Of a stretch of 64,000 nt of DNA, positions 56,024-59,470 are shown in pieces. The position numbers and the translations under genes are program-made. The first letter of the stretch is position 1. Each line of letters begins with the position of its first letter. The stretch spans positions 124,001-188,000 of the forward strand of contig JAEUKH010000029.1 of NCBI GenBank assembly GCA_016792845.1. Direction: 5' to 3'. The notes below the pieces were generated by a model. The model was not told the DNA's origin, ran no database searches, and was given only the letters and a program-made list of their open reading frames with translations. The DNA is from Myxococcales bacterium. Lineage in GTDB: Bacteria > Myxococcota_A > Polyangia > Polyangiales > Ga0077539.

Positions 56024-56887
56024 TTACATCGCCCCGGCGAGGCGCAAGATGCGCGCCTTGACCGCGGCGAAATTGGCGGGCTGATCGAGCGAAAACTGCG
56101 TCAGGTCGACCACTTCGACCTGGCGGTTCTGCCCGTCGAGGAGCCACAGCTGTCGCACCGCGGCGCCCCACGAGGTGGTGACGTTGGCGGTCGAGCTGTC
56201 TTGGCAGTAGGGCAACGTGCGCCCCATCACAATCGAGGCATTGCCGGCCTCAGCGCCAGGGGCGTTGATCACCGCGATGCGTACAGCGGTGGGGGGCCGG
56301 GCAGCGTCAATCTCGCGCTGCATCGAGTCGAGGTAGCCAACCTGGCTACCGCAGAAGCCTCAAGTTGCGCTCGCGAAGTACCAGACCGACACCTGGTTCA
56401 GGTAGGCCCGGGGCGACACGTTGCGGCCCGTGGTGGGCGAGTTCGGGTTGAGGTCGGGGAGCGAGAAGTCAGGCACCACGAGCCCCGTCGCGTCGTTGTG
56501 CATGGCGACGTTGCCGACGTCAGTGCCGCCGCCGTCGGCGCTCATGGCGCTGTCGACGTTGCCGACGTCGAGGCTGCCCGCGTCGAGGACCGCGACGTCG
56601 TTGCCGGTGTCACCGCCGGTGTCGCTGCCGGTGTCGAGGACGGCGACGTCGTTGCCGGTGTCGCTGCCCGCGTCGAGGGCGGCGGCGTCGGTGCGGTTGC
56701 CGGTGTCGAGGGCGACGTCGAGGGCGACGCTGCCGGAGTCGTTGCCCGCATCGTTGCCGGAGTCGCGGGCGGCCACGTCGTTGCCGGTGTCGCGGGCGAG
56801 GGCGGCGTCGACGGCCGACGGCGCGGGGTCACTGCACGCTGAGAGCGCGAGGGTGACCCACAAAAAGGGGGCTGGAATTCTACGCAT
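56024..56887 (-). CDS. Selenocysteine-containing thioredoxin-fold lipoprotein (UGFC redox motif)
   Basis: This is one reading frame of 287 residues with an in-frame TGA at codon 176 (bases 56360-56362). The signal is a lipobox TLALSAC (Cys 18), followed by a long Asp/Gly/Asn linker with DTGNDV repeats. From about 145 comes a thioredoxin-like domain: VPDFSLPDLNPNSP, then VSVWYFASAT-U-GFC, where Sec 176 and Cys 179 form the UxxC active site, then LPYCQDSSTANV and WLLDGQNRQVEVVDL. A perfect hairpin just after the TGA fits a bacterial SECIS. Read as a stop, the TGA would leave a truncated lipoprotein with no redox site. It probably reduces disulfides or peroxides in the periplasm. The SelA/SelB/SelD machinery is not in the window. 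Confidence 0.88.
56332..56350 (-). promoter_or_regulatory. Bacterial SECIS element
   Basis: On the minus strand a perfect 7-bp stem GGTAGCC/GGCTACC closes a 5-base loop AGGTT. It starts 9 bases after the UGA. In E. coli fdhF the upper SECIS hairpin (GGUUGC, loop AGGUCU) lies at nearly the same distance and has a GG in the loop, the SelB contact. It is read inside the coding frame. Confidence 0.85.
56360..56362 (-). other. In-frame UGA selenocysteine codon
   Basis: TGA in frame with both flanking parts of the thioredoxin-fold gene. It sits at the first position of a C/U-x-x-C redox motif, where Cys would be expected in homologues. The frame continues 112 codons to the true TAA. Confidence 0.85.
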
Positions 56888-56930: not shown

Positions 56931-57545
56931 TCAGGGCTGAAGCGCCAGGGCTCGGGCGACGGCGGGGCGCGCGGCGATGCGGTCGAGCCATGCGCTCACC
57001 GCGGGGAGGGTGTCGCGTTGAAAGCCGAAGCGCCCGAGGTTCTTCACCCAGGCGAAGTTGAGGATGTCGGCGATCGAGAATTCGCCCGCGAGGTGGTGAC
57101 GCCCGGTGAGGTGCTTTTCGAGCACGTTCAAGATGCGTCGCACCTCGCTCTCGAAGCGTTGGGTGGCGTAGTCGATGGGCTCGGCGAGGCCCTTGAAGTG
57201 CCCGAGCTGGCCCATCATGGGGCCGACGCTGGCGATCTGAAACATCGACCATTGTAGGGCCTCGTAGCGATCGGGGCCCGAAGGGGCGAGCAAGCGTTGG
57301 GTCTTGTCGGCGAGATAGATCAGCATCGCGGCCGACTCGAAGACGGTGATCGGGGCGCCGCCAGGGCCCTCGCGGTCGATGAGGGCGGGGATCTTGTTGT
57401 TGGGGTTGATGGCGAGGAAGCGAGGGTCAAACTGTTCGCCCTTGCCGATGTTGACCCAGTGAACGGTGTACGCGAGGCCGAGCTCTTCGAGGGCGATGAG
57501 GGGCTTGATGCCGTTTGGGGTCGTCCATGTGTAGAGGTCGATCAT
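56931..57545 (-). CDS. Glutathione S-transferase-like protein
   Basis: The 204-residue protein has an N-terminal thioredoxin-like domain beginning MIDLYTWTTPNGIKP and the glutathione-binding FESAAMLIYLADK. The C-terminal helical domain has FSIADILNFAW (N-capping box). It resembles bacterial Ure2p-like/nu-class GSTs. It conjugates or reduces with glutathione. It ends 43 bases before the selenoprotein gene on the same strand, so a shared transcript is plausible. Confidence 0.9.
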   Translation of the reverse strand: MIDLYTWTTPNGIKPLIALEELGLAYTVHWVNIGKGEQFDPRFLAINPNNKIPALIDREGPGGAPITVFESAAMLIYLADKTQRLLAPSGPDRYEALQWSMFQIASVGPMMGQLGHFKGLAEPIDYATQRFESEVRRILNVLEKHLTGRHHLAGEFSIADILNFAWVKNLGRFGFQRDTLPAVSAWLDRIAARPAVARALALQP

Positions 57546-57592
57546 GAGGCCGTAGAGCGTAGCGGGCCTTCGCCGAGGCGTCTGCGGGGCGC

Positions 57593-58393
57593 TCAAGCAA
57601 CGTCGGGTTGCAACGTCGCGGCGAGCACCCTCGCGCGGTGGGCCATCACCGACTCGGCGAGGCGCGGCGCGTGGCTGATCACGCCCATGTGGCCGATCTC
57701 GTCGATGACCTCAAGGGTGGCGTGGGGCGTGAGGGCGGCGACACGGCGGGTCATCGCGCGCGACGAGGCAGTGCTGCGCGCGCCGAGCACCAGGGTCGTC
57801 ACCACCCGGGCCGGGGCCGCGGGGGCGAAGGCGCCGACGTCGTAGAAGACCGCGCGCACTTCTTGAAACATCTTCCACCCGACCGAGCGGGTGTAGGCTT
57901 GCATCGCCGGGGGCATGCGGGCGAAGGAGCCGGGGCGGTTCCAGTAGTCGATGAAGGCGGCGAGCCATGGGTCGGTGCCGCCGCGTGATAAGTCTTCAAG
58001 AAACCAAGAGTTTTCTTGAAAATATGCGAGCTCGTCGCGGGCCTCCGGGTGGGCCTCCGGCGCTCGGCTGAGCGCGCCGAAGAGCACGGGCTCATAGAGG
58101 TACAGGCCCCTGAGCCGAGGGCCGAGGGCTGCCACCAGTTCGAGCGCCACCGTGGCGCCGTACGAGTGACCGTAGAGGTCGATCGGGCCCTCGGGCGGGA
58201 GCTGCGCGAGCACATGCGCGACCTCGTCTGCGAGGCGCACCGTCTCACCCTGCGCGACGGGGGCGCCCGGCGGGTACCCGAGGTTGCAGGGCATCACCCG
58301 CACGTCGGGCGCGAGCGCCGAGGCTGAGACAAAGCTCCAGAGGCGCGGGCCCGTGCCCGTTGAGTGAAGAAACACCGACGCGGCTGTGTTCAT
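57593..58393 (-). CDS. Alpha/beta-hydrolase
   Basis: The 266-residue protein has LHSTGTGPRLW as oxyanion region, the nucleophile motif GHSYGA, and the catalytic His in IGHMGVISH. It is cytoplasmic (no signal). It is 47 bases before the GST gene on the same strand and may form an operon with it and the selenoprotein. The substrate cannot be told. Confidence 0.88.
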   Translation of the reverse strand: MNTAASVFLHSTGTGPRLWSFVSASALAPDVRVMPCNLGYPPGAPVAQGETVRLADEVAHVLAQLPPEGPIDLYGHSYGATVALELVAALGPRLRGLYLYEPVLFGALSRAPEAHPEARDELAYFQENSWFLEDLSRGGTDPWLAAFIDYWNRPGSFARMPPAMQAYTRSVGWKMFQEVRAVFYDVGAFAPAAPARVVTTLVLGARSTASSRAMTRRVAALTPHATLEVIDEIGHMGVISHAPRLAESVMAHRARVLAATLQPDVA

Positions 58394-58471: not shown

Positions 58472-59470
58472 TCAGGGCCTCATGCCGCCCATGCCGCCCA
58501 CCGAGCAGAGGGTGGTCGTGCTGTTGGCGCCGCGCACCACCAAGGTCTTCGACGCGAGCATCACGCCGTCGCTCATGCGCGCGACGTCAGCGATGTACGG
58601 GCTGCGGTCGGTGGCGCTCCCGACCACGTTGTCGGCGCTCAGGAGCGTGTCAGGCTGCCCGTGCGCGGCGTAGAGCGGCACCGTCGAGAACACCTCGCGC
58701 ACGAGCTCGTCAGAGAACACAAGCTGCGTGATCACCGTGGCCGCGGCGCTGTCTGCGGCGTTGTACTCGCCCACCATCACGCGCACATGAATGTGCACCG
58801 CGCGCCCCGAATACCACCCCGGGAAGCACGAGTTGAAGTCGACCCTGCCGTTCGCGTCGGTGCGCTGGTAGCCGCGAAAATACATCGCCGCGCGGTCGGC
58901 CGCCTCGCGGTTGCACATCGTGTTGATGTTGCCCGAATAGATGCCAAAGTGATTGGTCTGCCAGATCTCGACGATGGCGTTCGACACGGGCTGGCACTGC
59001 TCGTCGACCACCTTGAGCGCGAGGCGCATGGCGATGCCGTCGAGCCCGTCGCTGACGTCTTGCCGCAGCGGCGAGGTGGTGTGACACGGGCCGATGGTGG
59101 TCTGGCAGATCAACGAACAACTCGTGCCGCTGCCGCTCGTAAAGGGGTCGGGGTAGCTGCTCGCGATGCGCGCCGTGCCGCCCGTGATGAAGCGCCCCGC
59201 GCCCGCGTCGACCGCGCCCGCGTCGACCGCCGTCACGACGTCTTGGGCGGCGTCACCCGCGACGCCGAGGTCTGCCGCGAGGCCCGCGTCGCCCGCGCTC
59301 GAGACGTCGGCGCCGGCGTCACCCGCGGCCGCCGCATCGCCCGCCGCTGCGGCGTCGTCAGAGCAGCCCAACAGCTGTGAGACCGGCGCCGCGACGAGGG
59401 CGAGGCCGAGGGTGCGCAGCAGGCTGCGGCGCGAGAGCGTAGACAAGGGCGAGCAGGGCGCGTCTTTCAT
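58472..59470 (-). CDS. Tat-exported intradiol dioxygenase-like lipoprotein
   Basis: The 332-residue protein has a twin-arginine leader (SRRSLLRTLGLALVAAP) ending in QLLGC, followed by an Ala/Asp/Gly linker. The catalytic domain resembles intradiol ring-cleavage dioxygenases, with a Tyr in IYSGNIN, a Tyr in WYSGRAV and the ligand pair HIH. The family uses Fe(III) to split catechols. Export is unusual for this family but known in some myxobacteria and actinobacteria. Confidence 0.84.
   Translation of the reverse strand: MKDAPCSPLSTLSRRSLLRTLGLALVAAPVSQLLGCSDDAAAAGDAAAAGDAGADVSSAGDAGLAADLGVAGDAAQDVVTAVDAGAVDAGAGRFITGGTARIASSYPDPFTSGSGTSCSLICQTTIGPCHTTSPLRQDVSDGLDGIAMRLALKVVDEQCQPVSNAIVEIWQTNHFGIYSGNINTMCNREAADRAAMYFRGYQRTDANGRVDFNSCFPGWYSGRAVHIHVRVMVGEYNAADSAAATVITQLVFSDELVREVFSTVPLYAAHGQPDTLLSADNVVGSATDRSPYIADVARMSDGVMLASKTLVVRGANSTTTLCSVGGMGGMRP

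Follow-up and report, generated by a model that had tools for sequence, protein, structure and literature searches.

The gene described here lies on the minus strand of the window (the whole stretch of DNA that was analysed, 64,000 nucleotides), a point the first-pass annotation leaves unstated, where it runs from 56887 to 56024 in one frame with a single TGA interruption. It opens with an ATG at 56887-56885, meets the in-frame TGA at 56362-56360 and ends with a stop codon at 56026-56024. Read through, the residues around the TGA are ASAT-U-GFCGSQ, and the sequence thus bears out the first-pass annotation, which had seen two parts in one frame joined across a TGA, with selenocysteine (Sec) in the first position of a redox motif. 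Without recoding, the list of open reading frames gives a 182-residue frame with an upstream TTG start and a separate 99-residue frame with an internal ATG. The codon-position bias in G+C carries on either side of the TGA, and none of the window's other in-frame TGA candidates has a U-x-x-C-like context. The features of the gene, each with the evidence for it, are as follows.

56024..56887, minus strand: entire coding sequence, 287 residues and then the stop when UGA is translated as Sec (sequence; profile match to NF053656)
56834..56887, minus strand: signal peptide with lipobox LSAC, MRRIPAPFLWVTLALSAC, Cys18 being the predicted lipidated residue (sequence; similar lipobox in many relatives)
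56477..56833, minus strand: low-complexity linker, about 119 residues long, with DTGNDV-type repeats and a high content of D, A, G, V, S and T (sequence; linkers of relatives)
56027..56476, minus strand: thioredoxin-fold domain, residues 138-287 (NF053656 profile; AlphaFold2; Foldseek)
56360..56362, minus strand: UGA codon, Sec176, position one of U-x-x-C (UGA or Cys at the same column in relatives)
56351..56353, minus strand: Cys179 (TGC), the resolving Cys (invariant in an alignment of 55 sequences)
56332..56350, minus strand: bacterial SECIS hairpin GGUAGCC-AGGUU-GGCUACC (folding; covariation in the family)

The protein matches the NCBIfam model NF053656 (redoxin_TUGYCR, titled 'TUGYCR motif thioredoxin fold (seleno)protein') at 178 bits (cut-off 100), over profile positions 1-144 of 146, as do all 55 of its aligned relatives. 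On sequence grounds it is a new member of a family that has already been named and whose title recognises Sec. The first-pass annotation knew of no named family for such a protein and expected ordinary annotation to split or discard the gene; NF053656 overturns the first statement, so that current NCBI models can recognise the protein. The domain match is full length, Sec occupies its place in U-x-x-C, and the NCBI name allows for Sec or Cys, but the window protein reads TUGFCG in place of the literal T-U-G-Y-C-R. Since this motif varies widely across members above the cut-off, TUGYCR serves as a label for the family and not as its definition. We found no published description of NF053656 or TUGYCR in the open-access literature, and nothing relevant there on selenoproteins or selenocysteine in Myxococcota or myxobacteria; a catalogue of prokaryotic selenoproteins dated May 2026 lists neither NF053656 nor SelP.

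NF053656 is a domain model and is silent on anchor or linker. Signal peptide, lipobox and Cys were recognised by inspection in the window protein and by pattern match in its relatives, in both cases without a dedicated predictor. A lipobox and a low-complexity linker occur in many relatives, the linker varying in composition and in length from <10 to nearly 300 residues, and a predicted lipoprotein anchor followed by such a linker is the usual architecture of NF053656 relatives. A scan of a collection of genome contigs for close homologues returned one match, in a Myxococcales record, which covers residues 3-140; as it spans signal and linker only, it is uninformative about the redox domain. 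A probable exported protein with a Pfam Dioxygenase_C domain, encoded on the minus strand at 58472-59470, has a similar D/A/G-rich linker, and such linkers therefore seem to be a general habit of the host organism.

The genome from which the window comes (6.7 Mb in 56 contigs, about 91% complete) carries the machinery for Sec insertion. We found tRNA-Sec (60 bits, with anticodon tca according to ARAGORN), SelA (E 3e-136), SelB (305 bits, with the C-terminal SelB winged helix present) and SelD (352 bits), each exceeding its curated cut-off, so that the sel genes proposed earlier as a check on the gene are present. Among 379 genomes of the phylum, SelA was found in 48 of the 51 that bear a UGA form above the family cut-off (Fisher p 7e-8, relatedness ignored), and the three without it are 78-83% complete. 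One genome that is 97% complete and in which SelA was not found (G049) carries a Cys form.

The homologues align across the UGA, and some have Cys at the site. In 71 domains collected from genomes of the same phylum, the active-site column holds UGA in 62, Cys in eight and neither in one (L060); the in-frame UGA thus falls within a single conserved domain and is aligned to UGA or Cys. Matches above the cut-off with a TGA at this site occur in 51 of the 379 genomes, and matches with no stop in nine, where eight proteins have Cys at the site and one, again L060, has neither. Were the TGA a real stop, the locus would either be a pseudogene or encode a shortened lipoprotein with a dead remnant behind it. 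That the hairpin beyond it is, taken singly, not significant against shuffled sequences would fit this reading, but 51 genomes have a TGA at this column and others have Cys, the SECIS element shows compensatory changes, coding bias is seen both before and after the TGA, and the Sec machinery is complete, all of which speaks against it and makes it very improbable. Still less probable is that the TGA stands, through a mistake in assembly or base calling, for a Cys codon (TGC or TGT). A single base would suffice, though this is a general possibility only; the TGA stands at this codon in independent genomes of many genera, dozens in all, and the Cys forms lack the hairpin that the window gene has.

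Sec and Cys have been exchanged repeatedly in the history of the family. Six changes are needed on the tree, at least five of them forced by well-supported branches, when L060, which has neither residue, is scored as Cys. Sec and Cys paralogues occur together in three genomes of the window's taxonomic family; the window genome itself has one copy, with Sec. The hairpin is missing from the Cys copies of these paralogues (Sec/Cys loci L059, L061 and L063 versus L065, L066 and L067), and in the Sec copies, where its significance is less clear, it lies slightly further downstream, by a few bases. L060 (positions 1992-2435, genome G118) scores above the family cut-off and lacks both Sec and Cys at its active site; it is possibly a non-catalytic paralogue.

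The hairpin itself, GGUAGCC-AGGUU-GGCUACC, lies at 56350-56332 as the first-pass annotation had described it, with a perfect stem of 7 bp that starts exactly 9 bases past the UGA; it may also be read as an 8-bp stem with the loop GGU. Taken alone it is weak (z = -0.89 for 50 nt against dinucleotide shuffles), and an equally stable hairpin stands in the same place after 10 of the 1575 TGA triplets in the window (0.6%). As the folding energy of the single sequence is not significant, the selenoprotein case does not rest on it. The comparison across the family is decisive: in the 62 UGA forms the best hairpin averages -9.0 kcal/mol versus -2.6 in synonymous-codon shuffles, which leave the protein sequence unchanged, with p < 0.05 in 84%. 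In the eight Cys forms the corresponding means are -0.65 versus -1.5 kcal/mol, and none is significant. Paired cells changed on both sides number 45; 500 shuffles gave no more than 18, and slid pairings no more than 19. These counts are not probabilities, because the rows are related and hence not independent of one another, but the same relatedness is built into the slid controls. The paired stems differ in sequence (GUAGCC/GGCUAC, GUGGCC/GGCCAC, GCGCCC/GGGCGC, GCGCUC/GAGCGC and others), and the conservation of the hairpin across the family is far beyond chance.

Bacterial SECIS elements carry a G in the first two loop bases. The window gene has such a G in a hairpin just 3' of the UGA, with compensatory changes in the family. 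The element resembles that of Escherichia coli fdhF, in which the hairpin likewise lies just past the UGA and GGU lies within the loop, and the similar distances noted at first reading stand: the fdhF loop, GGUC, begins 21 bases from the U of the UGA and the present one 20 (with the stem taken as 8 bp), while base 30 is the last of the stem in each. The fdhF sequence used for this comparison was matched in 5389 of 5426 E. coli genomes. The fdhF stem has one bulged U; unlike it, the stem here has none.

AlphaFold2 models the domain with high confidence (pLDDT 97.4) as a thioredoxin fold in which UxxC opens the first long helix, and the nearest solved structures found by Foldseek are of the ResA/DsbE/TlpA type (E about 1e-9). 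The two active-site positions (U/C44 and C47 of the domain) are invariant in the 55-sequence alignment. With ResA, TlpA and DsbE (CcmG) the protein shares the fold, the position of CxxC and, by prediction, an extracytoplasmic, membrane-anchored setting; it differs in that Sec replaces the first Cys, in an identity of only about 17%, and in the residue that aligns to the ResA proline ahead of the last central strand. There the conserved (cis) proline is replaced by Arg113 of the domain, an Arg in 49 of the 50 core members, which is followed by Gln in the window protein versus Asp in 48 of the 50. An Arg in place of this proline would be unusual for a plain disulfide reductase.

The Sec machinery, the conserved UGA/Cys column, the conservation of the SECIS element, the predicted fold and the lipobox, all computed here, support the earlier suggestion of a Sec-containing thioredoxin-fold lipoprotein. 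The gene almost certainly encodes a selenoprotein, and very probably it is in full an NF053656 selenoprotein with SelB-dependent Sec insertion, exported as a lipoprotein and acting as a Sec/Cys thiol oxidoreductase. SelB with Sec-tRNA would bind the hairpin just past the UGA, and Sec would be inserted at residue 176. The product would then be exported, lipidated at Cys18 and tethered through its flexible acidic linker; we infer a membrane location, most likely facing the periplasm or the outer surface. Sec176 would be the attacking nucleophile and Cys179 the resolving residue, via a selenenylsulfide. The likeliest role, judging from the modelled fold, is that of a thiol oxidoreductase with the ResA/TlpA fold, working outside the cytoplasm through Sec and Cys, for which we infer a reducing direction, with disulfides or related oxidised thiols as substrates and electrons plausibly drawn from a membrane protein of the DsbD/CcdA type. 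A DsbD_TM protein is encoded in the genome (145 bits).

The same selenoprotein may possibly have peroxidase activity. Were this its chief role, Sec176 would attack the peroxide, Arg113 would activate it and Cys179 would resolve the selenenic acid. The Arg, found where proline is usual, recalls the peroxiredoxin Arg; Trp, Gln and Asn are also conserved in the core members, and 35 of the 55 members match AhpC-TSA, with weak matches to GSHPx in a few. Against this, the nearest folds and profile matches are the reductases ResA, TlpA and DsbE, and a Pfam search with the window protein itself gave no match, so that a protein acting chiefly as a peroxidase seems rather unlikely.

No conserved gene neighbourhood was found over 20 loci, where nearly every cluster common to several unrelated loci consisted of the gene itself, and the surroundings thus give no pointer to the substrate of the oxidoreductase. 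Just upstream of the window gene, at 56931-58393 on the minus strand, lie a glutathione S-transferase gene and an alpha/beta hydrolase gene, an arrangement not seen in the relatives.

NF053656, recently modelled by NCBI, is thus widespread in the phylum, where its members are genuine selenoproteins whose SECIS element covaries, and repeated exchange between Sec and Cys goes with a missing hairpin in the Cys forms. The natural Sec/Cys pairs, some of them paralogues in the same genome, offer a test of what Sec buys an extracytoplasmic redox enzyme.

A more interesting lead than the window gene itself is a sister group of NF053656 in the same phylum that exceeds the cut-off of Pfam PF04592 (SelP_N, the model for the N-terminal domain of animal selenoprotein P) in 39 of the 379 genomes, with a TGA in 33 of the 49 matches listed; none of 14 control genomes gave a PF04592 match. 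In the sister-group sequences checked the TGA lies within U-x-x-C and is followed in nearly all by a hairpin with a GGC loop, which is absent from the two Cys forms checked. The window protein has no PF04592 match, nor is there one in its own genome at E 1e-5, and it differs from the sister group also in lacking the KDD segment. It does share with the N-terminal domain of animal selenoprotein P a thioredoxin fold with UxxC; Lobanov et al. (2008, PMC2397514) related that domain to TlpA and ResA and described the origin of selenoprotein P as unclear. The SelP_N match of the sister group supplies a concrete bacterial candidate for this origin, and its proteins are possible bacterial relatives of selenoprotein P. 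We tentatively suggest, while holding it somewhat doubtful, that NF053656 and the sister group together may be the bacterial proteins most closely related to the animal SelP N-terminal domain, with Sec already in place; the domain would then trace back to an extracytoplasmic selenoprotein of bacteria and not to a TlpA/ResA protein of the Cys type. Sister-group loci with a single TGA in U-x-x-C are L092-L096, L113-L117 and L120-L122.
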